Shown: one piece after another, positions 1 through 64,000 of the stretch
How positions within the stretch are numbered: the stretch's first letter is position 1
How the letters are laid out: every line of letters begins with the position of its first letter
Assembly: GCA_947034895.1 (NCBI GenBank)
Contig: OX344764.1
Coordinates: forward strand, 51,007,348-51,071,347
Source: Rhytidiadelphus loreus
Taxonomy: Eukaryota; Streptophyta; Bryopsida; Hypnales; Hylocomiaceae
DNA: 64,000 nt
Direction: 5' to 3'
Notes under the pieces: model-generated
Database searches by the model: none
Told to the model about the DNA's origin: nothing
The model's input: the letters and a program-made list of their open reading frames with translations, nothing else
Program-made: the position numbers and the translations under genes

Positions 1-1128
1 CCTTCTCCTTGAAACTAGAAATTGGGCCTAGAAACTTCGTTGCCATGTACTTTACGTAATGTCCAAAAATAGAAAAAGGGCATGAAATATGTAGGATTCA
101 CAAATGAAAAGGATTATTTTGTAGGAAATTATGCCGTCCCAATTTCACCTAAACCACTACTAACTTTTTTAGTACATGTGTTGCATGAGGTGGAGCTTGT
201 GTGAAGAGGTATACTATTAAATAGAAGAAATAAGAAACTAAATTTTAAAACGTTTTTAAAACTCACTTTAGTTAAGATTTAAGATTTATTAACAGTCATG
301 TAAAATTTCGAATCTAGTTTAATATGCTATACCCTAAACAAATAGTATAAAAATAGCCTTTGACTATAGAAGAACATTCAAAACTTTCTATTGAATGTGA
401 ATTCATTATTTTGGTATTTTTGATGATTTGAATATTGAATTCCATTGAATGAAGTTACACTTCAAGTTCTGTAGCAAAGTTATTGAACAATCACATTCTA
501 TATCTTTTTAGTTAGTGCAAAGTTATAGTTGTGAAAATATGTTATTATTTTCAGTTCTTCTACAATATTACCATTCTACCATTCTCCTATTCTTTTAGCC
601 TATTCATACAAAATGTTGATGTGGACATAGTATATATCACTTAAACTTTCAACGAATATAATATAATAGGGTTCTAAATTTCATGAAGTGTAACTGTTTG
701 AAAACAATTATATACTCCATGATAATAATTTTGCCAATTTTGATTAAGCACGCAAAGAACTACTTCATGTTTTCATTTCACATACATTATTTTATTGTTT
801 AGCCGTTTAACATTGAGACGGACGGTTTGCATCTAACGAATGACCCCGAATTCTCTTGTGTAATTATGACCAAAATCACACTATTCATCTTCGGAATTAG
901 GTATAGAAGGATAAATCTTCTACTGTTACTAGATTCCAAATGAATATTTATGATTTTTTAACTAGATTATGTCACATGATTCCCAAAAGGCTGATTTCGA
1001 TGGACACGTGACAAACCCGATGTTTATGGATTAGAAACTTGCATCCGTAAATAATATGCCTTCCTGAGTAACTTGCCTTTTAAACCTAGTTTATTCAGGA
1101 ACTTTTATCAGGAATTTGCATGCAAACC
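1..1128. other. AT-rich spacer, no gene seen
   Basis: No convincing coding region, RNA gene or ordered repeat was seen. The stretch is AT-rich with stop codons in all frames. Confidence 0.6.
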
Positions 1129-1455
1129 TCCATTGCGACCATCCATTCCTAAGCTGCATTCCAAACTTGCATTTCGAACCCGTATTTTGAATTAGAATCC
1201 CAAAACAACATTAAGAAATTGTACCGGTTTCCGAACTTACTTTTATAACTTGCATTAACGACTTTGCATCCCAAACTTACTTTACAAGTCGATTCCGAAC
1301 CTGCATTCCAAACTTGCCTTGTTGGCTTGGCATCCCACACCTAAATCCCGAACCTACAACCCGAGACTATGTCCCAAACCTGCATTTTAGGCTCGGCATC
1401 GCACACGATTATCCCGAACCTACAACCCGATCGATGTCCCGAACCTGAAATGGCG
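1129..1455. repeat. Degenerate ~13-bp tandem repeat
   Basis: About 25 back-to-back units of 12-14 bases follow a loose consensus CATCCCGAACCTG (variants such as CATTCCAAACTTG and ATCCCGAACCTAC). The array lies directly upstream of the GC-rich minisatellite. Short open frames across it are repeat-derived and show no protein family. Confidence 0.6.
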
Positions 1456-1489
1456 GCTCGGCAGTGGTTCGGTCGTTCATCTCCCTCCG

Positions 1490-1775
1490 TCAGTCTCGCG
1501 CTTCCTCTGCTGGTGTGTGCGCGCCCGATTCTCTGCTGGTGTGTGCAGTCGCGCGATTCTGTGTGCGCGCCCGATTCTCTACTGCGATTCCGAGGTGGTG
1601 TGTGCGCGCCCGATTCCTGTGCTGCATGTGTGCGCGATTCCGAGCTCGTGTGTGCAGCCGCGCGATTCCTCTGCTGGTGTGTGCGCGCCCGATTCCTCTG
1701 CTGCAGTGTGCGCGATTCCGAGCTGGTGTGTGCGCGCCCGATTGCTCGGCTGGTGTGTGCGCGCCGTAAGTATTT
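1490..1775. repeat. GC-rich minisatellite, alternating TG/CG tracts
   Basis: Imperfect copies of a ~25-35 base unit containing GTGTGCGCGCCCGATTC followed by CTCTGCTGG or CCGAGCTGG. The TGTGTGCGCGC runs alternate purine and pyrimidine, a sequence type that can adopt Z-DNA. Composition contrasts sharply with the flanking AT-rich DNA, so this may be a CpG-rich promoter or leader region for the locus downstream (inference). Long open frames on both strands here are by-products of the repeat. Confidence 0.55.
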
Positions 1776-2419
1776 TTCTGTGCCCTTTCCTGCTGGTGTG
1801 TGCGAGGGGTTCTGTTTTTTTTCCCTGCTGCTGTGTCGGAGCGCGCTTCCGTTCTTTTCCTGTTGGTGTTCCCGAGCGTGCTTACTTCCTGCTGCTGTGT
1901 GCGTCGCCATCTCTGTCGGCTGTGGTGATCTCGCGGGAATGCGGTGTGTGCACTTTTCTGTTGATTTCCGTGAGTTGGATAGAAGATCACCGTCAAACAC
2001 CAAGCGTGTCTGAATCAACTGCTGTGTATGCCTCTCTCAATGTATTTGATTTTGTAGTGACTAAGTTCAGCTTGTCCCTGTTTGCATGACTGCGATTTCA
2101 GCGTTTTCGTGATTGGTTTGGGTTCTGATTCTTGGGCTGGAAAAGTTAATCATAGAAGGTGTTTAATGGTTGTGGGTTCTGCAGATAAGAACGAATGTAC
2201 ATACTTCTGTAAATCAGTAGCTGTTGAGGGATTAGTAGTTTTTTGCAAATCGGTAGCTGCGGCTGAAGTATTCTTCCGCTGGTCTCCTTCGGGTGGAGCC
2301 GAGTTCGACCTTCTCCAACGTGATCTCCCTGATCTGCCTGAGTCGCAAAGTTGCAGGGATCCGGTTTTGTTTTCTTCAATTTTTGAGCGCAATCGTTCTG
2401 CCTCTGCATTCTTGAGCAG

Positions 2420-2482
2420 TGGAGGAGACGACGCCAACAGCAAATCGACGCCAACAGCAAGTCGACGCCAACAGCAAGTGCA
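2420..2482 (+). other. Possible 5' non-coding exon with 17-bp tandem repeat
   Basis: Three copies of GACGCCAACAGCAARTC lie at about 2430-2480 and end in CAG followed by GTATGG, a good splice donor at 2483. The next acceptor-like site is CAGCAG just before the ATG at 3631. This could be the leader exon of the ParB/methylase-like gene; no transcript evidence is available. Confidence 0.3.
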
Positions 2483-3628
2483 GGTATGGTTCTTTTCATT
2501 TCATTTTATTCTACTTGTTTGGAGATGAACACTTTGAGTTTTCAGGCGGGGTTTTGGCCAATGTCCATGGCCGGATTTTGCGTTCACTGTCATTTTATGT
2601 TTTCCAATTATTATGTGAGTTACTTTTTCTCTCAAATTTCCAGGTGCTACGGTTACAGTACTTCAGGTTTCAATTTTGTCTAGTTGAAGTATGGGAAAGT
2701 TGTGTAGAGTGAGCCCGGGAGGAACTTCTGTCGGATCAGCAACTCCATTTCGTTTTGCATTCTGTCAATTTCTGTGTGCAGGTCTGCTCATGCTTGCCGT
2801 GTAGGGTTTAGGATTTCTGTGTTGCTGTACTTCACACATTGGCAATTCAAGTGTTGAGAAGCACTGATTGTTTGCAACAAATTCAGCTTGCCTGAATTCA
2901 AATTCAATAAACATATAGGTTCAGGGTTTATGAGCTAGGGTTTACGCATCAAAGTGGATAAAGGTTTACGAGTCAAGGTTAATTAGCCTCGACACGAGGA
3001 TAAAGTTAAACGGACTGAGGAATAGACCAGCCGAACTGCCTATTCAGAAGTAGAGCTTCATACTTGATTAGCCTCGAGTCGAAGATAATGGAGATACGGG
3101 CATTGTAGATCCAATAAAACAATGAACATTGCCCAGATTACCCCGAGGACCCAAAACAACTGAAATAACAATGCACATCTGAAATTAAAATAATTAAAAC
3201 CAGAGAAGATAACTCATAATAACAAATAAATCTGAACACTTTTACCTTCGAGTCGAAGATAAAGAAATAACAATGGTCAGTCCAGGGAAAATTACACCTT
3301 CAATAGTATCAGATTCAACAAAAATCAGTACATGCAAGAATTCATGTTAATATATGATGCGATAACGTTAGAAAACAAATAGTCTCCATTGGAAAATTGA
3401 GGTCATTCAATTATTGAACTCATAATTAATAAACTCGTCTCTTACACCTAATACGATGATACGATTAATTATCTTCGACTCGAAGATAATTCTAATTTAA
3501 CTAATTACTAAAGAAACTGCCCCGCCATTCTATATCCACAGGATATGCTGACCAACAATTCACACTATCATATTACCCTCGTCTCGAAGGTAACTAACAG
3601 GCTTTCAATGTCTACAGACTTCACAGCA
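2483..3628 (+). other. Putative leader intron / 5' region with palindromes
   Basis: No protein-coding frame was seen. The stretch holds five of the locus-specific 21-bp palindromes (2983, 3068, 3242, 3469, 3573) and runs up to the start codon at 3631. Confidence 0.35.
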
Positions 3629-3630
3629 GG

Positions 3631-6600
3631 ATGGCGGAAGGAGCAAATTATGACTACTCTAGCACGCTGCCCTTCATGGAGCCTTTCCAAAACCCATTTA
3701 CAGACGGGCCCTTCATAGATGAAATGCCAGAGGCATTTGGGGACCTCTGGCAGTTCAAGCAGCATGTTGCTGCTTGGTCATTTGGCATAAACCGGTTCCA
3801 AGACTTCGTGCATCTACGGTACCGGGTCCACAACCAGCCAGACTTTTTTCCATGGCATCTGCAGGAGAAGGTCACAAACATTGAATCCGTCCGCGAGAAC
3901 TTCGTCGTGATCGTGCTGCAGGAGGCACGAGAAGACGGCAAGGACGGGGAGCACATCCATTCAATTGTGATGAACGTGAATGACATATGGGCAAAGTTTG
4001 AAATGGAGGAGTTAGAGTCATTTCTCCAAAACGCAAAATTAGACTACTTAATCAACACATTCAAAACTGCCAAATACATACCGTGGATTGAAGGCACTGC
4101 CAAAGTAAACTGCCGAAGACTCCTGAACATTTGGAAATCATTGGACAAGCATGCTCGACAGTATGTGAAGTCCCGGCCACTGATAGGCCATCAGATGAAG
4201 AAGAAGCAGAGGCCATCACTGGAGGGGCAGCCTAGTGGGTCCACTCCCCTACTGTCGGGCAGCACAGCAACCGGTCAGGGTCAAACTCGCTCAGAGCCGC
4301 GAAAACGGGCAGGAACTCAGTCCGCTGACGCAACGCAGGCAGGGGGCTCAAAATCTAAGCGACCGAGGGCAAGCCGAGCTGCCACAGTAACCGCTGCAGG
4401 AAGCTCAGGATCGGCTCTCACGAATGTCGCACTGCCAGAGGAACCCATGAGTCCGAAGGATGACGCTGACAAGTTTGGCCGCATTCAGCGAGACTTCTGG
4501 GCTATGTACAGAGGATGCTACGTCCTCGGACAAGATCCGAAAGTTGTCGACATCAAGCAGTGTATACCTGCAAGAGACGACTATGTCATCCGGGGTATGG
4601 AAGACCGTATCCTAGAATCGGTGAAGCGCAACCTCATTGCGCTAGGCCACATTCGGGAGCGCCAACGACTGTGTCTGACTCCTATCGACAAACGCAACAA
4701 TCTCCTGAAGGAGCCTCCCAGGAAATGGGAGGATATAAAGGATGGGAAGTTCATGATAATCAATGGTCAACATAGTGTCCAAGCATCCAAGGACTTGCAG
4801 AGAGAGAAGTGTTGTGAGCAACGTCGAGTTGAACTCAAGACCTGGGAGGCGTACATTGTTTGGACCCTTGATACATCGAAATTGGTGAATATATCAGAGT
4901 TTTACAACTCGACTAATCACCTAGACCACGCCCAACCAACATGGGGGAGCCAGATTATAAGCTTCCGCAACGTATGGATCAACTGCCTCCGACCGACTCT
5001 AATCGCCGATGAGCTGGTGAAGCGGAGAAACGCGTCCATCCTTAGCGAAGGGCAATGGAAGGTGATTTCTCCTCCTGACCTGTTTCCCTCGTCTCGAAGA
5101 TAAATTTCTCAGTTCATGGTTCGGCAGTTCAGTAATTTTCTGATTCATTATTGTTTCACTACTACTTCGTCTTTCTATAAATGTGTACTTGTTGTATTAT
5201 CTTCGAGACGAAGATAACTGCTGAAGAACTCGGTGTTCACACAATGTATGTCCACTGTACTGCAGAGTTTCACTAATGCGGTAGTAAAACGATTCCAAAA
5301 TATCAATCCCGAGAAAGAAGGCAAAAATATAAAACATGCCGGTGATCTCAAGAGCGAGATCAAGATTATCACTCTACGTGATGATATCTGGAGGCTCTGG
5401 AAAGAGTTCCTCACGAAGTACCCAGAGGGCTATCTCGTGGAGCCCGTCTCCCGACAGCTCTTCCGGGATTTGGATGACTTCAGCCGGAAGTCATTCTTCT
5501 TGAAGAGAGAGTTCTTCAAACATTTGGGCCACTTCACAGATTGTGATCTCGAGACTTTTGCAAAGCACCTCCTCAATCTAACCGAAGATCGTAGACTGAA
5601 GCACCCAAAGGTGTCCGTCAGCAAGACAAAATATCTTGTGCCGGACAACCAAACAGCGCAGGACTGGGTGGAGCGTAGGAAGAAAAAGAAGATCATCTAT
5701 GAAGAGTTGATGACAATAAAGCCCAGTCTGAAACTGCGAGATGAGAACAACGACACTGACCTGACCGTCTGGAGGTCGTGGAAGAAGAGGCACAGCTTCT
5801 CGTCGTCGACGTGGGATTTTCTCCTCTCCTACCCAAAGCCGTCATACTTCAGTAAACGGCTTACAAACGATGAAAAGTTGAAACGGGCCAAGGATCTTGG
5901 GGAAAAATTTGCGGACGAGGCAACAATGTTTCAGAGGTTTATGAAGTCGAAGTATCGGCTTCAAAAACAATGTGGAGGTTTCGAGTTCAGGGGCCTGGAC
6001 GCGAAGTCCAGAGTTCTGGTAACAACTGGAATGTACCAGTACATCAGTCGACCCCTTCCATTTGCTCTTCTTGACGTCCGGTACATGAACAGACCCGCCA
6101 TCCCTGATAACACATCCAATCTGGACCCGTTCCTTGAATACGTGGCCACCAGCCTGGAACCCCAGGCAACTGACGCAAGTGTCTGGCTTTGGATCCTCGG
6201 TGGAGACGAGGACTTCAACTCGGCATACAAATTCGCGACTGTCGACATGCCGAATTTCGACATCGTGAAGTCTGTATACATCGCTTCCCACGCGGAGCGA
6301 TTGGACAGTGTGTCCAATCGGTTTAAAACCGCTCCTGACGTGCGTATGCTCTTCCTCTTCAAGAGAGGTGACATGCATGCCAACGAAGTGCGGGACAGAG
6401 TAAAGGCAGAATACTGTCCTGCCGAAATTTTGTATTACCAAGAAAGTAAGTACAACAACGAGGCAAAGTGGAGGATATATGCCTACGAACTCCGAATGGA
6501 GTTCTATTTTGAGATGCTCCAATACTTCGCAATTCGTGAGGAAAACGTCTTGGGAATTTTTGCTGGAGCGAAGATTGCGTTGGCCGCCAAGGTGAGATTA

Positions 6601-8597
6601 TCCTCGAGTCGAGGATACTGCCTGCTGTCTTCTACCTGCATTCTTATTTCATTATTTTCATGTGGAGGCATTCGATTACCTTCGATTCGAGGTTAATTGC
6701 CCTCGTGAATCATGTTTAAATGTTTGTGTGTGTTGCTGTCCATAATCTGATATTCCTATGTCTCCCGTTCACATGTCAATGCTTATAGCGGTACGGAGGT
6801 CCACAGTTTACCTTCGAGTCGAAGGTAAATTTAGGCTTGCTTTGAATTCTTACATTTGCATATCAATCTTTTGTTCTCAGATGTTCGGGACATACTACTA
6901 CGGCCTAGTCGATACGGACATGGGCACGGTGCACCGTGCCATGACAAAATCGGCAGAGTACTTGGACATGAATGATTTCTTGCATTCAAATTCACCGTAC
7001 TCAGTCAAGTACTTGAGGCCATTGTACATCGATGCGCCAGTACTGACATCTGTCTCTCCGCCCTCGGAAGAGGATCTACAGTCTCCTTATTCTAGTAGTG
7101 ATGAGACTAGTACTGCATCTGAGGGGGGAGGGTCTGGAAGTGGAGACGAGGGAGATAAGTCAGGGAGTGGGGATGGCATCGACGTTTCTAGTTCCGAACC
7201 AGCTGACTCAACGAGGGACTCATCACCTCCTCCTGACGCTACGGACGCGGGAAGGGATGACGTCTCTCCCCCTGAAGAACATAGGGACGCCGGTGCTGGC
7301 ATCGGAGGCCTTGACGAGTATGGCACCAACGCCGATGCCATGGTGCGTTGGGAAGCTCAGCCTCGACTGGATGGTGAAGTGCCCAACCATGTAGTCGAAG
7401 ATGTCGAGACAGACACGGAGTTCCAAGAGCAGCAACACCTGGAGCGCTTGCGCGAGAGCCAGAAGTTGGAGAAGAAGTCTGCTTCGATGACCTCTAGAGG
7501 CGCCGAGGGCCACAGTCGTGAGGGGCGCGAGGGCGGCAGAAAGCTGAAATCCAAAGTGGAGCGTGTTGTGGAAAATCTCAGCGACATCGACACTGACACG
7601 CTCCCGCAGTCGTCGGATTTCGATGACAGCGACAGCGACGACGGCAAAATCCCCGACGTCCCTCCTACTCCCATCCCCGGAAAGATTCAGACTGGGTGGT
7701 GGCAGGCGATGGTCGAGAGGAAGGCGAAGAAGGCAGCGAAGAGGATGGCAATGCAAGAAGAGCTTGACAAAAGGGACAAACAAATCGCAGACGCTCTCCT
7801 CGCCAGCAAGGAATCGGAGGCGAAGAGTCAGGCCACAACAGAACGGCTGGAAGTTCTGGAAAAACAAATGCACGACTTTTTTGCTTTAAAGGAATCCCAG
7901 TCAGTTCCTGTTCCAAGCCTGCCACCCTCCGAGTCTGCCCTAAACCCCCCTCCCTCCACACCCGGTCTGTCGCAGGAGGCCCGTGAACTGGTCTCTGGGC
8001 TGGCGGATACTCGACTCGAGGATACACCTGCCGAGAATGCGCCACCTGAGCAGACAGGTCATGGAGTCGATCCAGGGAGTCGTCCTGTTCCTTCTCCCAC
8101 ATCCCCTGGTAATGTTGCTGGGATTTATCCTCGACTCGAGGATAAATCTGAAGTGGGTCCTTCGCTTCCCCAAGATGATAGGGTTGGTGATGCTTCTGTG
8201 GATGCTCCACAATGCACACCGTCCAGGCAGGTGATAGAGGAGACAGCTACTCCAGGTGTACCCGAGCAGGAACAAGTCGACTATGGCGACTACGACGACT
8301 TCCTGCAGGATAACACTGTCGACGGGGGCGAAGAAATGCCTTCTGAGGCACCATCTCAGGAAGGAGGAGATGAGCAGCCTGCCGAATCGGTTGAGGTATG
8401 CTCTACTGATTCCTATTGACTTTCTCTCCCTCTGTACATAGTCTGCGTCGAAGTCACCTCTTCGTTGTCGATCTCATAGTCTCCGCATTCTGATATGATT
8501 ATCTTCGACTCGAGGGTAAATTTAAGAGATGTGGGTGAGTCGCTCTTCTTGTCACTTATACTGTATGCATTTTGCTTGACAGGACGGTCCTCTTTGA
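3631..8597 (+). CDS. ParB/Srx-like plus degenerate amino-methyltransferase fusion protein
   Basis: Four exons: 3631-5061, 5266-6591, 6881-8395, 8583-8597. All junctions are GT-AG and phase 0, giving about 1,428 residues. Residues ~290-470 resemble a ParB/Srx domain, with NGQHS at 378-382 in the place of the family's GxHR-type motif. Residues ~700-950 have the order of beta-group N4/N6 amino-methyltransferases. The DPPY position reads DVRY (747-750). The late SAM-binding FxGxG reads FAGAK (909-913). The helix after FAGAK continues across the second intron (IALAAK joined to MFGTYYYGLVDTD), which confirms that splice. Loss of both prolines and the second glycine suggests a binding rather than catalytic protein. 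The tail is acidic and disordered, with a coiled coil at ~1192-1258. ParB-methylase fusions are known in phages and bacteria; a nuclear plant copy is unusual. Function is unknown; the role as a binder of the local palindromes is inference. Confidence 0.7.
5062..5265 (+). other. Intron 1 of ParB/methylase-like gene
   Basis: The donor is AAG/GTGATT and the acceptor is CTGCAG/AGTTTC, phase 0. Two 21-bp palindromes sit inside (5083 and 5197). If unspliced, the reading frame ends at the palindrome at 5083, whose last bases supply a TAA stop. Confidence 0.65.
6592..6880 (+). other. Intron 2 of ParB/methylase-like gene
   Basis: The donor is AAG/GTGAGA and the acceptor is TTCTCAG/ATGTTC, phase 0. 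It splits the methylase fold just after the FAGAK motif. Three palindromes (6598, 6676, 6808) lie inside. Confidence 0.75.
8396..8582 (+). other. Intron 3 of ParB/methylase-like gene
   Basis: The donor is GAG/GTATGC and the acceptor is TTGACAG/GACGGT, phase 0. One palindrome (8499) lies inside. The exon that follows codes only DGPL before a stop, so it may be one of several alternative last exons. Confidence 0.5.
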
Positions 8598-8726
8598 TTG
8601 TTTGGCGTTGAAATCCTGACGAAGTCGTCTTCACAATGCCCCGTGTAGAGTAGTGTAGCATAGCAATCACTTGTGATGTTTTCCGGCCTTAGATGAGGGT
8701 GGCATCGTCAATATGTACTCTGTAAT

Positions 8727-8753
8727 ATTTGTAAATAAATATGTATGCGATTC
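8727..8753 (+). terminator. Polyadenylation region, first copy
   Basis: Contains AAATAAATATGTATG about 135 bases after the stop at 8597. The 27-base block recurs with one change at 9873-9899, after the phosphatase-like frame, so both are probably 3' ends. Confidence 0.5.
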
Positions 8754-8808
8754 AGTTTCCATACGCGTCAATCTAATTGCATTTTCCTGACAATGTTATG
8801 TTGCTCAG

Positions 8809-8937
8809 CCAAACATTCCTAGAAGTTTGCACCGCCCGATGGCAATGAAAGCTTTTCCTAAGGGGAGCAAGCAGTCGATTAGTGGATTTCAGTGCTCCTT
8901 CCCATTGTCTGGCTCACTTGATTCTGCATTCAAACAG
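8809..8937 (+). CDS. Possible internal coding exon (43 codons)
   Basis: The exon is bounded by GTTGCTCAG before 8809 and CAG/GTAACT after 8937. It is open and phase 0 at both ends, matching the phase of the preceding and following exons. It could link the third exon of the ParB/methylase-like gene to the exon at 10016. No family was recognised. The gap to the next acceptor at 8971 is only 34 bases, too short for a normal plant intron, so a join to 10016 is more likely than one to 8972. Confidence 0.35.
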
Positions 8938-8971
8938 GTAACTCCATTTCTATGTTGTCTGATTTAATCAG

Positions 8972-9730
8972 GTAGGGTCTAAGGGAACCGGAGAGCTCGT
9001 GCCGCGGAATATCTCGCCGGTAGTGCCTGACCGGAGGAGGTGGCTGAATATAGTGTTCGACTTAAACGGAGTCCTGTGCCACTGCGAGCCCAAATCTTAC
9101 TGTAGGAGATTTAAGCCGTATAGTGTCGAACAAAATAATCTATGCCACTTGAACCCCACCCTCGTAGGCCCCAAGGCGGTATTCGCCAGGCAAAATCTGC
9201 GCGACTTCCTGCATGAGGTCTCGGAGATCACGGCGAGGGTCGTTGTCTGGTCCTCCATGAAGCACTCCACTACGGAGATGGTGGTGGAGCACCTCTTCAA
9301 AGGGATCAGGGCCCCCTTCGAAGTTCTGGGTCAGGACCATTGCAGGAAGATTGAGACCTTCTAGGGGACTTTCCTCCACTTCAATAAGAAGCCGGTCTTT
9401 CTGAAGGTCCTGGCCGAGCAGGTGTTCACGATGGTGGGTGGGGATGAGGCCTTCACCAGAGACAACACCCTTCTCATCGACGACTCTCCCGAAAAGAGTG
9501 TCTGCAATGAGAAGGGGAATGCCATATTCCTTCGCTCCTGGCGTCATAGTCATCGGCTGGACAACTTCTTAATGGGGGAACTTTTGCCGTGGCTCGGGCG
9601 TCTGGAAATGGAGTGTGAACCCGGTCGTCTGCGGGAGTATGTACAGGTCAATCGGATAGGGGAAAGGCCGTTGGCCTATGTATCCGAGTATGTCCAAGGC
9701 ATCGTCTCGGCGATGAGAGATTCCGCATAG
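8972..9730 (+). pseudogene. FCP1/NIF-type HAD phosphatase-like frame with internal stop
   Basis: The frame is continuous from an acceptor at 8971 to the stop at 9728-9730, except for one in-frame TAG at 9362-9364. HAD motifs are visible. VFDLNGVLC starts near 9053 and holds the nucleophile Asp at 9059, but the usual second Asp of DxD is Asn. VVVWSS fills motif II. TLLIDDSPEK (Asp pair at 9479-9484) fills the acidic motif. Length and motif order fit an FCP1-like C-terminal-domain phosphatase fold. The DxN variant occurs in plant relatives and may lower or remove phosphatase activity. No ATG lies near the start, so it is probably a downstream exon rather than a free gene. The TAG makes it a likely pseudogene unless read through, edited or spliced around. 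One palindrome-bearing exon follows at 10016. Confidence 0.6.
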
Positions 9731-9872
9731 AATCTCGGCTCGCGTTTCGAACTTCCTGGGTTCGATGTAGTTATAGAGCCCGATGGACATAGGCCTTAGA
9801 CTAGTCTTCTGCCCCGACATCCAATAGTGCACATTTTGTAATTTGTGATTGTATATTCTGTACATTTGTAAA

Positions 9873-9899
9873 ATTTGTAAATAAATATGTATGCGGTTC
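9873..9899 (+). terminator. Polyadenylation region, second copy
   Basis: The 27-base block differs from 8727-8753 at one position and includes AAATAAATATGTATG. It lies ~145 bases after the phosphatase-like stop, about the same spacing as in the first copy. Confidence 0.5.
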
Positions 9900-10015
9900 G
9901 GAATTTACATTAAAAGTTGCGCGTTTCTGTCGTCTTGGATCCGCGCTCGTGTCGTCTGCTTTGGGCCTGGGGGGGGAATGTATAAGAAACTTGTAAAATT
10001 TATATCTTTTTGCAG

Positions 10016-10945
10016 GTTGGAGCTCAAAATGTTGGAGACTCGCCTAAGAGGTTGAGGATGACAAGGAGCCTCCTCTCTGGATCGGGGAAGTCGCTTTCGA
10101 TGTCTTCCGGATCGGGATCGGAATCGAAATCTCCGGGAGGAACGTTCGTGCCGTCAATGTTCTCCGGGCCTTTCATGATGCGCACGGCCGAGGACGCTGC
10201 TTCTGCGGCCATTGACTTCTCCAAGGGGGACGTGGAGGACAGCGCCGTGGACAGCCCGCTAAGCCGAGGTCCGGGGAGGACCCCCGTTTGTTCCCCGTCC
10301 CCGTTGAAGCGCGCATCTTCGAATCGAGGATGCTCGTTCTCTCCAACACCACAGAATGAGGCGGGGACCAATCGGAAACTGCATCTTCCCGTTCGCGGGG
10401 GCAGTCAAGATCCTCCACTGCAGGATACTATTTTCACGGAGCTCGACCGCCCAAATGTCCCCGTCACAGCCTCGAAGACGACCGCCCAAGTGTTACCAGG
10501 AACGTATACGAAGAGTGACGATGCGGGTCTTCCAAGGGTGGCTCGTTTGCCTCGCCTCGAGGGTAATCGGGCAAGCCCTTCACTATCTGCTGGAGGTAGG
10601 CGGTCGCCTTCAGCCGACTCCCTTTTTCGTCAAAGGATTATAAGAGACCAAAGGCGATCTCTGGACTCCAAATCAACTGGATCTGGACTTCCATACATAA
10701 GCAATGTAAACTCAATGCTCCCAAGGCCGCGCCCTCATGGGTCAAAATCTATGTCCAGTTCCGAGGTTCCGCGAAGCACCCTGAAGTTGAAGCGGAAGGA
10801 GAGTGACTCTCAAAGTGTGGGCTTCTCCGGAGCGGTGGACGGTGGAAATGGGCCCCATTATCACTCTCGACGCGAGGATATATTTAGAGGGTTGGCGAAG
10901 CTAAAAGCGTTAGAGGCAGCGAAGAGCAACTGTACAGGCAAATAG
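10016..10945 (+). CDS. Ser/Arg/Pro-rich disordered terminal exon
   Basis: The exon follows a clear acceptor (TATCTTTTTGCAG) and is open in phase 0 for 309 codons to a stop at 10943-10945. It is rich in Ser, Arg, Pro and Gly with no recognised domain; a Lys/Arg-rich start (KRLRMTR) could serve nuclear import. Three palindromes lie within the coding sequence (10313, 10546, 10861), read as parts of SNRGC, PRLEGN and RREDIF. No nearby ATG fits, so it is best read as the last exon of a longer transcript from the ParB/methylase-like locus, perhaps joined to 8809-8937. Alternatively it is a decayed separate gene. Confidence 0.45.
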   Translation, partial: VGAQNVGDSPKRLRMTRSLLSGSGKSLSMSSGSGSESKSPGGTFVPSMFSGPFMMRTAEDAASAAIDFSKGDVEDSAVDSPLSRGPGRTPVCSPSPLKRASSNRGCSFSPTPQNEAGTNRKLHLPVRGGSQDPPLQDTIFTELDRPNVPVTASKTTAQVLPGTYTKSDDAGLPRVARLPRLEGNRASPSLSAGGRRSPSADSLFRQRIIRDQRRSLDSKSTGSGLPYISNVNSMLPRPRPHGSKSMSSSEVPRSTLKLKRKESDSQSVGFSGAVDGGNGPHYHSRREDIFRGLAKLKALEAAKSNCTGK

Positions 10946-11533
10946 TGACTCGTCGGGATGCAAGAATATTTTTTGAAGCCAGTCTTTAAAACGTCCCTTA
11001 CTATAAATAGCATGGTAAATAAAAAATTACAAACCAGGAGTAACGATAGTTGAGAGCTTGCATGATCAGTAAGCATCTAATTTTGTAGTTCATTTAGATT
11101 CATGACACTGTCAGATTTACTTTGTCCATTGGATGAAGCAATTTAGTGAGACAATTAACATTAGTGAATGTAAATTCATCCGCATTTTCATCTACTACTG
11201 AATTCTTGATGCTAAACATGTGAATGTTTTACATCATGACTGTCTATCCTTGTAATCCACATTGTTTTTTTGGAGGGGCGGACAAGTATGTTAAGGAATT
11301 ACACTAGAAGTGTTCTAGCACACGAGAGGTTGATTTCACACTAGGTAAGAACCCGCTACCACGGCATTAGATTTAGGCACCTCACGACCATCACCCTAAA
11401 ACATATTGTAAAAATGTGTTCAATAATTTCTATTTTCCTTTGGGTTTGGCAAGTATTACTACATTAAAGCTTCACACCCTTATTTTCAAAGTCTCAAAAT
11501 TGCCAAATTGTCTCAAATTAACGAATAAGGCCT
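10946..11533. other. AT-rich spacer, no gene seen
   Basis: Past the stop at 10945 there is no supported gene. A short minus-strand frame around 10861-11076 overlaps the exon and lacks family features. Confidence 0.5.
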
Positions 11534-13190
11534 TATAACTATAATCCCTCCAAAGCATTGAGGGAGGGATTATACCTCCTTGACAAGGGAAGCATTTTGG
11601 CTAGTGAATAATGTTATGAGGTTCCTATGAAGTCAATTCTGGTCAGATGTTCACAAAATTTTACATTGTTTACATTTTACATTGTTCTTCTACTATAGAC
11701 GAGTAAATGAATCCATTCTTAAACCTTAAAAAAAAGTATAATTGTCTATTGAATGGACAATTGAAAATCCAGATAGATTCCTATGAAGTCAATTTTGGTC
11801 GGATGTTCACAAAATTTTGACACAAGGTGTGAACATATATTCCTTAGTAGGAATATTATTTCTTTTTTATATGGTGCCCAAATTAGAAGTTATGCAACCT
11901 TGAAGGGTGTTTTTTTTCCTTATAGGGCAGCTTTTGCAAAACTCCTCTTTCACTTCTAAAATTTGCCAGCTGTATAACTTACATGATACAAGATGAAAAT
12001 GCTAAAAGAAATAATCATGTGTAGTATAAAAATCTCATTCTAGGAGGATTTTAAGGTTGCTAGCCCTATAAGGCAAGGTAAGAAAAAGACTCTTCTAACT
12101 TCAAACGTTATAATCTTTCAATCCATGTAGTCAAAGTTTCTCAAATTTTTTCCACACATTTCCATAGTAATCTAGTACACATTTGTATGGTTGAATTTTA
12201 AATAAAAAAATTTAATTTTTTGTTTTTCTCATTGCCCTAAAAAGTGATAATTTTCACAATTTCTGCCCAAAATATGCTTTGAGTGGACCTTTAGAAGTTG
12301 AAGAATGTTTTAAATGTGTGGCTTTGTCAAGATTCATTAGTTTTCTATGTGAAATACACATTTCAAAAATTTGATATTTTTCTCATGTAGTAATACAAAT
12401 CTGAAATTTATCTTCATTTTTTCATAATTAAGGTAAAATTTATGTCATTTGTTAACATAATTTTTCTATAAAAATCATGGTAATTATAAATTGCTTTTAA
12501 GTAGTATGAAATTTTGAACAAAAGTAGAAGTCATATTAACAAACATCATGCTATAACTTTGTAAGTATGCAATTGATATGCCTTTTGAGCTCATCCACCA
12601 AGAGAAATTTGATTAAATTTTTTTTTTAAAAGTCCAAAAGTGTTGCATTATTAAACTTTCAAGATGCTACCCTCAAAATGTTACAAAAACTACAATTATA
12701 ATCATATTCAAAATTAAAAAAAGGATTTAGAAGTAGATTATTGGATCTACATTTTCTTAGTCAAGATTTAAAGCATTTAAAATAAGAAACTATGTGACTT
12801 TTAATAAAATAAACTACTACAATGGTCATTATAATTAAGCTTTCAATGCAAATATATTCACATTATTGATATATATTTTTTTTGACCAACTCCAACTTCT
12901 TTGTAACCTCTATAGCTCTCTAGATAGAAAATAAAATATTATTTGTGAATTTGAAGGAAAATTAGCGCACAATTGTACAAGAAATCATGTAAATTATGAG
13001 AAATATTTTTTTGAAATTGTGATTGTATATTTGTAAACCTTAGTTGAATAGAAGCTTCATCACCTTTGAAGTAAAAAATTTAGCCTCAAGAAAACAATTT
13101 TACCATTTGAAATATGTTTTTTTTTGTATTATTTGCTTTTTTTTAAAGAATGTCCAAACAAGTTTAGCATCTAATTTAAGAAATATTTTT
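11534..13190. repeat. Dispersed ~1.6-kb AT-rich repeat, copy A
   Basis: Begins with a short inverted repeat (ATAATCCCTCCAAAGC ... GAGGGAGGGATTAT) and matches 62433-64000 in the same orientation over its whole length, with small indels. A third, interrupted copy lies at about 46300-47600. No coding capacity was seen. It is probably a non-autonomous or decayed mobile element. Confidence 0.7.
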
Positions 13191-13802: not shown

Positions 13803-15066
13803 ATTAGAGAAAATTTGAGGCCTCCAGAGGGTCGTTCTGCAATGACAAACACAGCTATTAAAAGAGAAGTAGGGAGCCTATGGAATACGTTGAATCTGTG
13901 GTGTCAACTTGGGTGAATATCGCAAATGTTGTCAGACCAAATTAATTAACAATTATTAAGGCAACAATGTATAGGGCAATAAGTACATGGTGTGTTATAC
14001 TATTATTGCCAATTAAGCAAGTTCTTTTTTTTTTGACACAAGTAATAATTAAGCAAGTTTTTGGTCATTTACTTTATTTCATAACACCAACTACAACGAG
14101 CTACTTACTTGATTTAAGTGTGGAGGATTGTCAGGAGAGAAGGTCTTTATACAAGTGGGGTAGTGGTAGGTACAACAACCCATGTGGGATATGTGAATTA
14201 GGACTAAAATGAGGAGCTTCACTGCTCATAGTTATGTAAAAATGCAGAAAATGTGTTGAAAAACAAATTTTAGACTTAATTTAGGCATAGAAGAGTATCT
14301 TTTTTCAAAAAGCTTTGGTCTAAAAAACGTTAAGGAATCAAGTCAAGTTTTATTTTCAAAAATCCGTTTCAAGTTTTGGCACTCCACTTAAAAGTTATGG
14401 AAACATTTCAAAGAGGGTGTTTGAAAATGTTCAAAAAAATGACCCTTCCAACCCCTCTTTGAAATTTTTCCATAACTTTTAAGTGGGGTGCCAAAACTTG
14501 AAACGGATTTTTGGGAATAAAACTTGACTTGATTTACCAACCTTTTTTAGACCAAAGCTTTTTGAAAAAAGATACTCTTCTATGCCTAAATGAGGTCTAA
14601 AATTTGTTTTTCAACACATTTTCTGCATTTTTACATAACTATGAGCGGTGAAGCTCCTCATTTTAGTCCTAATTCACATATCCCACATGGGTTGTTGTAC
14701 CTACCACTTCCCCACTTGTATAAAGACCTTCTCTCCTTATCATCTTCCACATAAAAATGGTAATGAAGTGTATCATTAATACGCCATAAAAAAAAACCTT
14801 GCATGGTAGATGGTCAATGGACTACCTTTAATATTATTGTGTTTTCCACAACTTGGTTGGAGTGCAAGGTATTCAATAATTAGGTTGAAGGTGCATTTGA
14901 ACACCTTCATCTTGATTATTGTAACCTTTGTACTTGGATTCCGAGGCATTGACAAGCATGCGACGTTGTGACAGAAGGTGAGCGAAAATAGGGGAATAAA
15001 GTTCAATTTGCAAGGTCCTTGGAGGGTTGTGGAGCGGCCCTTCAGAGGCCTGCGATTTTCTCTAAT
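13803..15066. mobile_element. TIR element, ATTAGAGAAAA..AGGCCTC family, with internal foldback
   Basis: The left end ATTAGAGAAAATTTGAGGCC is matched inverted at the right end (ATTAGAGAAAATCGCAGGCC read from 15066 leftwards). No clear target duplication was found. A second member with the same termini is at 59994-60371, and a related single end is near 18433. No transposase gene lies inside. Confidence 0.55.
14117..14757. repeat. ~640-bp foldback (long hairpin)
   Basis: Two arms of about 300 bases, ~14117-14425 and ~14445-14757, are inverted copies with few changes around a ~20-base centre. A transcript would form a very long hairpin of the kind that can feed small RNAs. It is nested in the TIR element at 13803-15066. 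Confidence 0.8.
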
Positions 15067-15563: not shown

Positions 15564-16000
15564 GGGGTAGTCACACCTTCTTCACTCCGGAATTGAAGAA
15601 TGGAGAACACGTACGTGGTGGTTTGGAATTTGATTGAACTTGTCCTTTCAAGAGAGAATATACTTAAGTACGTATATCTTCCGCACTCCCACTCTTCACC
15701 TCCGGAGGTGAAGAGTGGGAGTGCGGAAGATATACGTACTTAAGTATATTCCTTTGTGCTCTACACTTTTACCTTTCATTGCCGCTTTACCTTTCTTGTT
15801 GCCGATTTCCCTCCAACTTTACGTCTAATCTTAGGTTTAGGTAAGTTGTTTTTCCACTTTTTTCATTCTCCACTCTCAACACATCTTTTAGGTGTCACAC
15901 CTTCTTCACCCACCATGGCTTCCCATTGGCTCCTCCAAACCCTCCCCAACTTCTCATTCTCCATTCTTCAAGTGCCAAGTGAAGAAGGTGTGACTACCCC
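15564..16000. mobile_element. Stowaway-like MITE, TA target duplication
   Basis: Inverted ends GGGGTAGTCACACCTTCTTC are flanked by TA on both sides (15562-15563 and 16001-16002). A subterminal match (TTGAAGAATGGAGAA) follows on both sides. The element is 437 bp and non-coding. A third internal copy of the CACACCTTCTTCAC motif is near 15896. Confidence 0.7.
15656..15751. repeat. Perfect 96-bp spacerless palindrome
   Basis: Reads identically on both strands, centred between 15703 and 15704 in CCTCCGGAGG. It is nested in the MITE at 15564-16000. Perfect palindromes without a spacer are normally unstable, so it is probably recent. Confidence 0.9.
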
Positions 16001-27185: not shown

Positions 27186-28320
27186 AGGATTTAAAAAAAA
27201 AAAGAATGCTTCTGAAGAAAGAATCAATTTCACTAAACAAAGAATCAATTGTCATAGTCAATTGCCATTCACTGAAGAAGGAATCCATTTTTATAGTCAC
27301 AGTCTTTACAAAGTCTTCACGGTCATGTGAATTGGCACCGCAATTGAACATGTTAATTGACATGGCAGACAACGTCCACATATACATGATTATGCGCATC
27401 ACACTACGTCATGTTGAACATGAACTCACACATCAATTTAGACTGTGCACATACTACTCAGCATCGTCGACTCTGACAACAATTAGGCATTGTTGCCCTC
27501 CCGCGTGGAAGACTGCACAACAACGGGGATGTATGTTCCACCAACGTTACTAGGTTCTCTGTCTGGTTCTACTTCCAACATCCGTGGATGCAATCCAACG
27601 AAGTTTTGGTCGTCCCCAACATCGGTCATAGTTGGCATGCTTTCATTCACTTGTAGTTGTCCGCGTCTGCCTCTAACATCTGTGCGACATACTACCTTCC
27701 ACCCCGGACTCTTCGTATCATCAGATAGAAAAACTTGTTGACAATGCAAGGGAAAAGCAAAAGAGTCGGCATGAACTTTCCCATCCATGCGGTTGAAGTT
27801 GGCCAAGGTGAATCCATACTCGTCTCTCTTGATGCTAGGGTACCGTACATCTGTAGAAGTGCAAACCCAATCACATACAAGAACGGTTGTGCAGTGGTTT
27901 CGGTAGTCCAACTCCAAAATCTCTTCAATGTATCCCACATACTCCTTGCTTACTTCTATAGGGCGTCCACTGGAAAGCCCCCACCGAAGTTGTTCTGTAA
28001 AGGATGCTATAACAACGGAATCACATGTCACACGGTCACCTTCTACATTGCAAACGCGTAGATGCATACCAAAGGCATGCATTTGGCGATGTGCAGTTGC
28101 ATATCGTTGTGGAGGCATCCCGTACTGAACGACATCTGGGTCGACATGCTGACCGGCATCTTGTAGCACCCAAATTTCGCCAGCCAACCACGACGGAAAG
28201 GGTGGCAAGTCAAGAAGATGAGGTGGATAGCATACTGCCATTGTAGAATGCCGTCGGCGAAATTGTCGCCGGAAGGCCTCTCTTTCCTCCCATCGTTGCC
28301 CTCGAGCTTCCACATACTTC

Positions 28321-28625
28321 CTACAAGTCAAAAATAAAATGCATAGTCAGAGAAAGAATAGGACATCAAAATGCAGTCATAGCAAACTAGAACTGTGGAT
28401 GTGTTCACGCAATGTTCACTGTGATGTTCGATATAACATTTACGTGTCCTTGTAGACGTCAAAGTAGACATACGCTAACATGCGTGCATGTTAAATGTGA
28501 CATTCCTCAGGACGTCAACAATGTTGTCTGCATGAACGATGCTGTCGACCATAGATGAAAAGAACAGGGATTCAAAGCACGAGTATATGTACTTCCTGGG
28601 GGAAAAAAAGGGTAACAGTACTCAC
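28321..28625 (-). other. Intron 3 of the CACTA transposase, GACGTC-rich
   Basis: Donor GTGAGT, acceptor CTTGTAG. Contains several ACGTC and GTTCACTGTGATGTTC motifs like those of the element's subterminal regions. Confidence 0.7.
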
Positions 28626-29879
28626 TGCCGCCAAGGAGCCAAGGAAGCTACATTGTCCAAGACGAAGGCATGTGCATGACTTCGGAAGTCGTCAGACATC
28701 TTTCGGCTACGTTTGGAGTTGGTCCGCAGTATTTCATCATTCATGATGGGTTCCTCTATGGCATCCCACACACGTTGCACTGTTCCCCCATACGTGCGCA
28801 TGTACTCTATGCAGAATCCAAGTGTCTCTTCCATGCGGTACCCTTCGGCAATGCTACCCTCCGGATGTGCCAAAGTTCTTACGTAGTCCTTCAGCGTCTT
28901 CATATACCGCTCTATTGGATACATCCAGCGGCAGTGCACAGGACCACAACGGAACAATTGCTCCACTAGATGCACCGGTAGATGCGACATGATGTTATGG
29001 AAGGTTGTTGGAAATTCCTTCTCAAACTCAGACATCGCTAGCACTACGTCGCGCATCATGTCATCTTTGTCTTCAAGTCGTACCTCCTTTGCGCATAGTT
29101 TTTGAAAGACCCTGCTCATTTTTATAATGGCTAAGCGCACACGCTTGTCTAGTATGTTGCGGACCGCGATGGGGAGGATCTGTGCACCATGTCCAAGGAA
29201 ACAAAAGCAATTACTGCACAGCCTAGTCTGTATACAACTGCTGTTCAACATTAGAGTAGCCCGTCAAAGATAACGTCAAATACAGTGCCACAGTTAACAA
29301 GAACCACAACATACAATATGACACTACACAGAAACGGCAATGACATGCAATTGCACATCACCTTCTACACTTCTCTCTACATATTTGTACTTTGGATGTG
29401 TCATGCAGCATGCCAAAGAATGCTAGAACAATTCTAGCATAGTACTTGTACAATGTAATATATTGAACTCAGTAATTTCAGATGAAATTAAGAGCACAAA
29501 AGATGCAGAGCTGTTTAGGTCAGTTTCATACCTGCTGCATTAGCACATGATAATCATGTGTCTTCATGTACTGTAGCTTTCCATCCACTAAACGCTTGTG
29601 AATGCTGCCAACGTAGTTTGTAGGAGTTCGAATATTGGACACAATTCCGACAAACTCCTTGCGCTTTGTGGCCGTCATTATGAAAGGGGCATGTGGCATG
29701 TAAAATTCAACGTTCTGTCTTCGCGCGGGTTGCAACCATATTTCTCGTCGGATACCCAATTCCTCAACATCCAATCGACTACCGGGACTGTCCTTCATGC
29801 CAAACAGAGTCTTCAAAATGTTTTCGCAGAAGTTCTTCTCGCAGTGTATAGTGTCGAAAATGTGAGGTTCCAGCAAGTG

Positions 29880-30190
29880 CTGCACAAGCAAAAGAAAAAT
29901 AAATCCCATGCGTATCATGCCGTCTGCCTTCTTTCGTAATTCTTACCCTCCCCACATTTTTTAGTACTCAGAATTGGACGTACAACTTTCGACTGCTACG
30001 AGGATAGTTCCCTGATGTCGTCAACCATGCACAACTTGACGTCATTATGGACGTCACAGAAGACGTCACAGTGAACGTCAAAATGAACATTGACAGCATC
30101 AGGTTCTTCTGAATGAAGCTGGACTTCAACGATGCAAGCACACTTTCATATATAACAATTTAAACTTGTAGCGCGGCTTCTTGTCCTCAC
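29880..30190 (-). other. Intron 1 of the CACTA transposase, GACGTC-rich
   Basis: Donor GTGAGG, acceptor GTGCAG. Around 30030-30085, TGACGTCA-type palindromes recur every 12-16 bases. Confidence 0.7.
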
Positions 30191-32560
30191 CTGCCAGTAT
30201 GGCAACTCTTGAAATGGGCTCAGTTGCTTAACCCCTATGGTATGCACTGGATCTACAGGCCCATTCTCTCTTCCTCCTTGTGCAAGGTAAGAGTCCCGCC
30301 ATGCTGCATATCGGATTCTATCCAGCTGTGTTTGAATGTGTGGACGATCACGAACCTCCTCTTGCCCATTGAATCTTTTATTGCGTCGATAAGGGTGATG
30401 TCTTGGTAAGTACCGACGAATGCCACCGTATACAATCTTTGAGCCCTTGGTTTTTCTATTAGGAAGCATGTCACCCATTTTAGCCATCCTCGCATCAATG
30501 TTTGTTCCGCAAGAAGGGCAACCCTTGTATCCTTTGCAGCACAATCCCGAAATGAGTCCAAATGCAGGAAAATCAGAGATTGTCCATAACACTAACGTAC
30601 GGAGTGTGAAACTACGACTCCCTTCTAGTTGGGAGAAGTCAAGGGCAGGTACTCCATGCCACAATTGAAGTAGCTCTTTCACCAAGGGCCTGATGAAGAC
30701 ACCTATACCTTTGGATGTTGGCGAGTGCTTGCCCGAAATCAATATGCTTAATGAAATAAAGAATTTTTTTGTGACAAACCAAGGCTCAAAGTTATATATC
30801 AAGACCAGAATAGGCCAAGTTGACCAATTAGTGTTATTAAGCTTGAATGGGTTGACACCATCTAAGGCCACAACAAGACGCATATTTCTAACTTCAAATC
30901 CAAAGTTGTCAAACGCGACGTCAGTGTTGACGTGCTTCCACGCAGGACTATCTACCACGGACCGCATGATTCCGTCTATGCTGACGTGTTTTGTGTAGCC
31001 TGTTAACATGCGCACTATCTCTGACGACCTCCACATCCGTTTCAAACGAGGAATGAGGGGAAAATGTCTAATGACCTTTGCTGGAATGTTGTCAGTGCCA
31101 TCCATCCACCGCGAAGTACTACAATTTGGACAGCTCTATAGTGCTGAGTGCTCATCTTCAAAAAGAATGCATCCATTGGGACAAGCATGCACGTTGTTGT
31201 ACTGTAGGCCCAATTTATGAATGCTTCGGCGTGCTTCATAATGGGAATGGGGTAGCTTATTCCCTCTTGGAAGCAAGTCGGAAGACAAGTAACGGAACAA
31301 CTCATCCGTGAATTTATTGCTAACACGAAAGACCGTGCACATGTTCATTATGATGATGGTGGCCGATATGACGCTTGTTTGAGAGTTCGGATACGCAGGT
31401 GTGGTAGCCTGCCTATACAAATCCTCCAATCCGTCAACGTTCTCAACGATGCTGTCATCTTGGTCTCCAAAATTCTCTTCGTCTACAGCCTCTTCGTGCA
31501 AAGCGTCGCCTCTGTTCAATGCCTCCATGACCTGGCGGTGGACTTCGTGATATTCATCCAAAGGACGATTCCAGTCACCTTCAAGAAGATCTGCACCTGC
31601 AGGTTCTAGACCCATGTTATCCATGTCGACAGGAACATCAAGTGAAATATCAGGTGCAGTGTTTTCAACGACGTCATTGTCGTAAGCGGTATCTTCAACC
31701 CACATCCCTTCAAGTGGATATCCCCCAGGGGGGTCTCCCCCTACTACAGACTTCTTCAAAAATGGATCCCGGCCAACCTGGGAATGGTGCCGCCTAATGA
31801 CATGGATTGTTTTTAGATAGGCCCCCTTGCAATCCCTGCAAGGACACCTGAAGGATCGCAGATTTTCCTCGGTGGCCACTCTCAGCTCCGTCTGTAGGAT
31901 GATGTCACCAAGTGGGATGTGCCGGAGCGTTCGTCCATCTTCAGAAATACGAATGGTAGCGCCCTTCCCTCTAGAATTCCGATGTTGTTGGAACGCCATG
32001 TCGTGTCTGTTCGGAGAAGGGGACGCTGTTGGGATGTCTTCAACCTGCCACGTCCATCCTGAGATGTGAGAAGAGGACACATGTGAATGCCGGAAATAAC
32101 ATTGTACGTGACAATATTGCTATGGTAGAACTGGGTGTACAGAGGACAACATCAATCTTCAAAAGGAATGTATGAACTGAAGAGGTATGCAAATTCATAG
32201 CCACGAAGGAAACTTTAGATGGATAATTTGGCGGGGCTCCTTAGGTGCCATGTCATAGTGAATGTTCTAAACAAGGCAGACTGAGGTTAGCTTGTTAAAC
32301 GTGGTGTCAACCTCACGTTCTTGTGCATGTCCGGATTGACAAATATATTCACGCTGAACATTTAGGAAAAAAAGTATGTCACGAGTGACGTCTTCTGCGA
32401 TGTCAAGTGTGACATACAGTCCGTACCCATCCACTGTTTTGCCCTACGAAGAAGCCCACGTGTAGTATGGGAGCCGTATCATGGAAGACCGCAGAAGAAG
32501 GCTGTCACTTACGCTTTTCAGGCCTGAAAGAGTATTGAAGTAGAGTCAGTAATTCCCTTG

Positions 32561-61995: not shown

Positions 61996-62432
61996 GGAAG
62001 GAAAACCCTGAGGAAAGCTCGGCGGAGGAATAAGGACGGGAAATTGTGTGGGGTCTCGACCCTCGAGAGTAGAGTTCGGGTCCAATGGAAGTCAGCGGCG
62101 TTTTCCAAAAGTCACAATCAGTTTGACCATTTTTTCTTCTAAGCTGTGTTTTACATTGTTCTTCTCCTGTAGACGAGCAAGTGTGAATCCATTATCCTAA
62201 CCCATAACCTCTAAAAGAAAAATGTATAATTGTCTATTGAATGGACAATTGAAACGATAACATTATTCACCAACATGGAGGGGTCCCTTTGGCTTCCTAA
62301 TAAAGTGTTAGCCCCTCAATGTTGAAGCTTTTGAAATCAATTTTGAATCTTTGCAGTAGCCACTCACAACTCTATTCACTAATACAAGCATGACGAGAAC
62401 TTGCGTAAGCCAACTAATGATATTGATTACAT

Positions 62433-64000
62433 TATAACTATAATCCCTCCAAAGCGTCGAGGGAGGGATTATACTTCCTTGACGAATGACGAGGGAAGCA
62501 TTTTGGCTAGTGAACTGTTATGAGGTTCCTGTGAAGTAAATTTTGGTTAGATGTTCACAAAATTTTACATTGTTCTTCTACTATAGATGAGTAAATGAAT
62601 CCATTCTTAAACCCTAAAAAAAAGTATAATTGTCTGTTGAATGGACAATTGAAAATCCGGGTAGGTTCCTATGAAGTCAATTTTGGTTGGATGTCCACGA
62701 AATTTTGACACAAGGTGTGAACATATACCCCTTGGCCCCTTAGTAAGAATATAATTTTCTTTTGATATGGTGCCCAAATTAGTAGTTATACTACCTTGAA
62801 GGGTATTTTTTTTTATAGGGCAGTTTTTGCAAAATTCTTCTTTCACTTCTAAAATTTGGCAACTGTATAACTTACATAATACAAGATGCAAATGATAAAA
62901 GAAATAACGGCATGTGTAGTATAAAAATCTCACTCAAGGAGGATTTTAAGGTTGCTCGCCCTATAGGGCAAGGTAAAAAAAAGACTCTTCTAACTTTAAA
63001 CATTATAATCTTTTAGTCCGTGTAGTCAAAGGTTTCTCAAAAAAATTCCACACATTCCCATAGTAATCTAGTGCACATTTGTATGGTTGAATTTTAAATA
63101 AAAAACTTTATTTTTTTGTTTTTCTCATTGCCCTAAAGAGTGTTAGTTTTCACAATTTTTGCCTAAAATATGCTTTGACTCTTTGAGTACACATTTAAAA
63201 TTTTTGATATTTTTGTCATGTAGTAATACAAATCTGAAATTTATCTTCATTTTTTCGTAATTAAAAACATTAAAGTAAAATTTATATCATTTTAAACATA
63301 ATTTCTCTATAAAATAGTATGAAATTTTGAACAAAATTGGAGGTCATATTAACAAGCATCATGTTGTAACTTTGTAAGTATGTAATTGATATGCCTTTTG
63401 AGCTCATCCACCAAGAAATATTTGATACAAAAAAGAAAAAAAGCCCAAAAGTATTGCATTATTAAACTTTCAAGATGCTACCTTTAAAATGTTACAAAAA
63501 ACAAAATTATAATCATATTCAGAAATTTTAAAAAAGGATTAAGAAGTAGATTATTTATTGGATCTACATTCTTTTAGTCAAGACTTAAAGAATTTAAAAT
63601 AAGAAACTACGTGACTCTTAATCAAATAAACTACTATAATGGTCATTATAATTAAGCTTTCAATGCAAATATATTCACATTATTGGTATATGTTTTTTCC
63701 AACCAAGTCCAACTTCTTTGTGACCTCTATAGCTCTCTAGATAAAAAAAACAAAATATTATTTGTGAATTAGAAGGAAAATTGGCACACAAATGTACAAG
63801 AAATTCTTGTAAATTATGAGAAATATTTTCTTGAAATTGTCATTGTATATTTGAAAACCTTAGTTGAATAGAAGCTTCATCACCTTTGAAGTAAAAAAAT
63901 TAGCCTCAAGAAAACAATTTTACCATTTGAAATATGTTTTCTTTTGTATTATTTGTTTTCTTTTAAAGAATGCCCAAACAAGTTTAGCATCTAATTTAAA
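62433..64000. repeat. Dispersed ~1.6-kb AT-rich repeat, copy B
   Basis: Same orientation and high similarity to 11534-13190; continues past the window end. Begins with the inverted ATAATCCCTCCAAAGC / GAGGGAGGGATTAT hairpin. No coding capacity was seen. Confidence 0.75.

Follow-up and report, generated by a model that had tools for sequence, protein, structure and literature searches.

VANDAL elements are MuDR-type transposons. As far as the available parts of the published accounts go, the Arabidopsis transposon VANDAL21 has an anti-silencing protein, VANC21 (PMC5735166; PMC10398659), which binds a motif that is dense in the noncoding DNA of its own element, with loss of methylation as the outcome (PMC5735166). 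By analogy, this system is the nearest working parallel to the element described here, a 19,440-base-pair (bp) transposon with terminal inverted repeats (TIRs) located at C4:50999442-51018881 in the 407-Mb genome of the moss Rhytidiadelphus loreus. The window, i.e. the whole 64,000-nucleotide stretch that was analyzed (C4:51007348-51071347), contains the right 11.5 kb of this transposon (positions 1..11534, forward strand), and the right half of the transposon is the gene that hosts an array of palindromes. We consider it fairly probable that these palindromes act in cis as DNA recognition sites of the transposon family, read by an element-encoded dimer and marking the family's own copies; the most likely reader is the ParB-fold protein encoded by the window gene. 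Like VANDAL21 as portrayed in those accounts, the element carries, besides a second gene, a short motif dense in its own noncoding regions, including introns, and as the VANDAL21 motif is tandem-amplified, so the arrays here are also tandem. Unlike the VANC21 motif given there, YAGTATTAY, which spans 9 bp and has one orientation, the site here is a 21-bp palindrome, TTAYCYTCGA-N-TCGARGRTAA. The ParB fold and the FCP1 exon also set the element apart from VANDAL, the likeness here being read from sequence, and Pfam, scanned with the exons of the window and with the relatives' alignments, yielded neither of the VANC domains DUF1985 and DUF287.

Sola transposons, in the accessible portions of their descriptions, have 4-bp target site duplications (TSDs; AT-rich in Sola2) and TIRs, with an 888-amino-acid (aa) transposase in one Sola2 element and lengths above 15 kb in some, and have been reported in the moss Physcomitrella (PMC3627910; PMC10741241). 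The present element resembles Sola so described in its 4-bp TSD and TIRs, a likeness by description and not by transposase comparison, and departs from it in the ParB-like/FCP1 second gene, in the palindrome arrays and in some TSDs of miniature derivatives, which contain G or C. Compared to the ParB-parS systems of bacterial segregation (Noc, KorB), the sites here belong to a plant transposon and number thousands, and the sequence NGQHS stands in place of GxRR, a ParB motif. Finally, TnpA of En/Spm, a second protein of its element, binds many short subterminal repeats, regulates the element and helps transposition; the sites here are mostly internal, in leaders and introns, and TIR, TSD and transposase type differ as well.

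The original prediction had described about 16 palindromes private to one 8-kb locus and had taken them, together with a ParB-like and methylase-like protein encoded there, for a self-recognising unit. All 16 copies are present, with 0-4 mismatches each, and score 19.2-34.6 bits in a window scan with a position-specific scoring matrix built from the 16, far above the rest of the window, where the next-best scores are 13.5 bits, for a decayed candidate, and 6.7 bits; the top score from 20 first-order Markov shuffles was 12.0 bits. According to the gene model, in which splice sites were placed from the sequence, five copies lie in the leader (2983..3003, 30.0 bits; 3068..3088, 31.8 bits; 3242..3262, 32.5 bits; 3469..3489, 32.8 bits; 3573..3593, 30.5 bits), two in intron 1 (5083..5103, 27.1 bits; 5197..5217, 30.2 bits), three in intron 2 (6598..6618, 6 bases past the exon end, 32.8 bits; 6676..6696, 26.4 bits; 6808..6828, 32.2 bits) and one after exon 3 (8499..8519, 33.4 bits). 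The five coding copies comprise two in exon 3 (8005..8025, encoding TRLED, 22.0 bits; 8125..8145, encoding YPRLEDK, 34.6 bits) and three in the last exon (10313..10333, 21.8 bits; 10546..10566, 25.6 bits; and a decayed copy at 10861..10881, 19.2 bits). Counterparts of the copies at 3469, 3573, 5083, 5197, 6598 and 6808 were aligned in locus L032, and of that at 3573 also in locus L034. The candidate in exon 3 (7357..7377), barely over the best shuffle, is a probable decayed 17th copy. The palindrome is not private to this locus, however: the genome contains 6,231 places at no more than 2 mismatches, compared to 10 for the reversed pattern, and eight more copies lie upstream in the same element, 3-4.5 kb before window base 1.

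When transposase-like open reading frames (ORFs) and ParB-like exons were located across the genome, 32 of the 48 transposase matches, one copy being counted among them as two pieces that each have a partner, had exon 1 of a ParB-like gene no more than 20 kb away, and all 32 pairs were head-to-head; random placement gave a mean of 0.59 and a maximum of 3, under an assumed length of 60 Mb for C5, which is actually 50.7 Mb long. For the other 16 matches, no exon was listed among the 89 of 1,068 exon candidates scored. With 47 of 2,147 transposase and 40 of 116 miniature candidates likewise scored, these counts are lower bounds. In the whole element there are 24 palindromes, eight before the transposase-like gene, five in the leader of the ParB-like gene, six in its introns or after exon 3, and five in coding sequence (11.1 expected if uniform), so that 19 of the 24 are noncoding. 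Among 23 clusters in C1:0-46.4 Mb, obtained from the first 100 exact matches listed by merging by eye within 30 kb, 22 carry a ParB-like gene, a transposase or a miniature element, L060 being the exception; two of the clusters were assigned by coordinates alone and one (L020) because it is 82% alike to the miniature, the TIR not being found there, and the stretches read do not include an array at C1:37.619 Mb. Some palindromes form tandem arrays with units of 40, 44, 122 and 329 bp. Positions 2562-2946 of locus L023 are an array of the variant core TCGAGGCGA, which suggests subfamily-specific drift of the site. At C1:43.207 Mb, positions 1233-2017 of locus L060 hold eight palindromes, and the palindromes alone make up its matches to the element and the miniature. 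The idea of a unit formed by a site array and a gene family is well supported, given that clusters coincide with the gene family in the genome and on a contig from another source (see below), but the unit first proposed was incomplete, as it missed the giant transposon, the transposase-like partner, the thousands of palindromes and the miniature derivatives.

The ends of the element are marked by a left TIR (AAGGGCTTATTCATTAATTTGAGACAA, C4:50999442-50999468) and its inverted partner on the reverse strand (window 11508..11534; 25 of 27 bases identical), flanked by the TSD ATAA (left copy, C4:50999438-50999441; right copy, window 11535..11538). The left 7,906 bp (locus L036), preceding window base 1, contain the transposase-like ORF and the eight further palindromes. 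A copy on C1 matches at 96-98% identity between a point 7.9 kb upstream of the window and window position 8975, where it breaks off, and two further copies on C2 had both ends read: the complete copy at C2:55327939-55347827 has the exact TSD ATTA, and in that at C2:13897069-13916921 the adjacent bases are GAGT/AGAG and the TSD is not exact. Exact 4-bp TSDs were therefore found in two of the three full elements read. Genome-wide, the TIR occurs at 725 places (359 + 366) at no more than 3 mismatches, compared to 0 for the reversed pattern; among the 100 exact ends listed, 23 pairs of neighbours are in inverted orientation at spacings of 16.3-22.9 kb, and no neighbouring ends less than 30 kb apart are in any other orientation. 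The TIR was found near the predicted spot at all nine transposase-side ends read, each with different flanks, and at two of the three far ends, the third stretch (L050) stopping short of the end according to the genome-wide TIR matches. The transposase frame is stop-free in five other copies at 94-98% identity, so that the activity of the transposon may be recent. Judged from its sequence, the family is one of 16-23 kb TIR transposons with mostly AT-rich 4-bp TSDs and a DUF7869 transposase-like protein, and is Sola-like. Around the element, window positions 11533-13000, which start right at its right end, and 62432-63820 are 84-87% alike, and the insertion may have taken place in or next to a repeat; about 0.7 kb outside the left end of the element lies an ORF (L036 712-1425) that resembles what we take to be a germin-like host gene.

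Gene-less elements of 255 and 377 bp with related TIRs contain two or three palindromes in each of the 15 copies read (30 of 34 palindromes match without mismatch), and the difference in length is a 122-bp unit bearing one palindrome. Exact 4-bp TSDs were observed in 14 of the 15 copies; the same target site is common to four of the 15, each 377 bp long.

In the ParB-like gene, which is on the forward strand throughout, exon 1 (3631..5061, 477 aa) was assessed through an AlphaFold2 model and fold comparison, whereby residues 302-431 are predicted to adopt the ParB N-domain fold, in support of the ParB-like assignment, and residues 41-176 show a weak PH/PTB likeness. The methylase-like assignment is not supported, with no Pfam match and PRMT7 as the best PDB match (E = 0.51). 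Exon 2 (5266..6591, 442 aa) is conserved in relatives from Ceratodon purpureus and matched no known domain in Pfam; exon 3 (6881..8395, 505 aa), which contains the palindromes at 8005 and 8125, is mostly low-complexity; and the small exon 4 (8809..8937), with putative splice sites including an AG acceptor, aligns at 98% in the C1 copy. The following FCP1/NIF phosphatase-like exon (8971..9730) is palindrome-free and contains one in-frame TAG at 9362-9364; its first piece matches Pfam NIF at E = 1.2 × 10−6 and its second at 0.0078, under Pfam's cut-off, and NIF is also present in three Ceratodon relatives. An alternative last exon (10016..10945, 309 aa) is an open, low-complexity frame containing the palindromes at 10313, 10546 and 10861. 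Two stretches that agree at 90% of 41 bp and contain a poly(A)-like signal follow exon 3 (8714-8753) and the FCP1 exon (9859-9899), as if the last exons had been duplicated. The partner ORF, upstream of the window and pointing away from the ParB-like gene, encodes 967 aa, matches DUF7869 (E = 5 × 10−43) and is taken here as transposase-like.

Five prokaryote records contain the motif, with more than one exact copy only in L004 (CADCWO010000074.1). This contig encodes the same gene (exon 1 37-38% identical), with four palindromes in the leader and one in intron 1; the contig is of plant type and was deposited as part of a Synechococcales metagenome-assembled genome, and public databases list its ORF (P0007) among cyanobacterial proteins. 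Where public gene calls run through intron 1, YPR[LV]ED or LSSxRR peptides result, and a motif-coding window (no more than 1 mismatch) occurs in 11 of 31 proteins compared to 0 of 241,550 windows in five shuffles; among the 11, P0004, P0017 and P0022 need a stop added at the protein end, P0024 is of another kind, and P0007 is the ORF of L004. Hypothetical proteins that belong to this family and are annotated on the Ceratodon U chromosome might also be products of transposon genes.

Comparison of 14 aligned noncoding sites with two diverged copies showed differences at 30 of 294 palindrome positions (10%) and at 418 of 1,225 positions in the noncoding flanks (34%; p = 6 × 10−18, with bases taken as independent, flanks partly overlapping and gaps counted as differences). 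The sites were those with a counterpart in the aligned pieces, two aligned coding sites being left uncounted. Matched changes in the two arms had also been claimed for the window. Among its 16 copies, position 6 is matched in 10 compared to 8.1 expected (p = 0.33), all arm positions jointly give p = 0.019 and the noncoding copies alone p = 0.46, and only the copy at 10313, where the outer arms changed in step (GC...GC), is clear; across the genome, however, position 6 is matched in 68 of 87 non-redundant copies compared to 51.3 expected (0 of 3,000 within-element permutations). Under this permutation, covariation was detected at positions 6, −1 and −2 and, weakly, 1, and none at positions 2, 4, 8 and 10 among the 87 copies; positions 2 and 8 also covary if the permutation is not kept within loci. 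Two symmetric classes of sites, C-type and T-type, lie side by side within elements. On the strand of the ParB-like gene, 17 mixed position-6 pairs are C-A and six are T-G, a wobble pair (from 103 sites, not de-duplicated, in 11 loci); of the C-A sites, two sit in the pre-transposase cluster of L034 and would be T-G in that transcript. The predominance of C-A implies that it is not RNA pairing that has been maintained.

The presence of palindromes in the control regions of both genes and in gene-less derivatives indicates that they are probably the site of element self-recognition. A dimeric element-encoded protein would bind the two TCGA-centred half-sites, and a dense array would mark the DNA as the element's own; the bound protein might keep the copy active, by countering silencing or controlling transcription, or take part in assembling a transposition complex, and miniature derivatives would keep their sites because the same proteins are used in trans. 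Several observations weigh against this interpretation. The helix-turn-helix (HTH) domain, through which ParB binds parS, was not seen in exon 1, the modelled part of the protein, and neither was a CTP switch. Two close copies show a palindrome divergence of 1.4% compared to 1.5% elsewhere, and the difference in CpG retention is not significant (33 kept and 1 changed in palindromes, 444 and 55 outside; p = 0.24). Within the 3.4 kb of cluster L060 that was read, no element part was present, neither an element gene nor a TIR being found; the clade around P0006 is without the intron-1 signature, and some other proteins end before that place. Retention of sites in the miniatures is not independent evidence because these were found through the palindrome match and likeness, and their link to the big element consists of similar TIRs, 5 of 27 bases off its consensus, and the TSD length. 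Moreover, the sites could just as well be read by the transposase or by a host factor.

The best-surviving alternative, possible but in our view doubtful, is that the transposase binds the palindromes as internal or subterminal transposition sites, with the ParB-like gene serving another task. In the derivatives, the distance from the end to the first palindrome is 42 bases on one side and 70 on the other, sites occur directly upstream of the transposase ORF in clusters containing one, and the decayed palindrome at 10861 is 653 bp from the right end, all in favour of such a role; however, the nearest palindrome is about 3.5 kb from the left end, and 16 of the 24 sites of the element are in and before the other gene. 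We would also rate as unlikely a system akin to ParB-parS, in which a ParB-fold clamp would load at the arrays in promoters and introns, spread, and keep the element open or partition it, with parasitic miniatures sharing the benefit via the same sites. A structural device, either RNA hairpins in transcripts or extruded DNA cruciforms, is quite improbable: the arm covariation is in its favour, but the excess of C-A over T-G is the reverse of selection for RNA pairs, although this does not bear on cruciforms, and the four arm positions without covariation within elements also argue against it. Equally little credence is due to spread without function via tandem duplication and hairpin-templated repair, for even if quasi-palindrome correction is a known mutational route that would itself match the arms, and the tandem arrays and the lack of extra palindrome conservation in close copies agree with it, in diverged copies the palindromes have changed threefold less than flanks aligned at the same positions, and palindromes accompany the gene on L004.

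Elsewhere in the window, remains of a CACTA-type transposon (27483-32080, reverse strand) include tnp2 transposase and DUF4216 ORFs and a weak transposase-associated domain under Pfam's cut-off; a Copia-type polyprotein (49615-52287) is open over 889 aa and has integrase and reverse transcriptase; and long self-inverted stretches occur at 14119-14751 (about 636 bp at 92%) and 15656-15751 (96 bp at 100%).

Taken as recognition sites, the palindromes at 6,231 places in the genome are linked with a plant ParB-fold gene family and a giant transposon in one testable system. If the ParB-like protein is the reader, this would be a ParB-like site system operating in a mobile element of a eukaryote, of which we know of no description, and a case of plant-transposon self-recognition from parts other than those of VANC.

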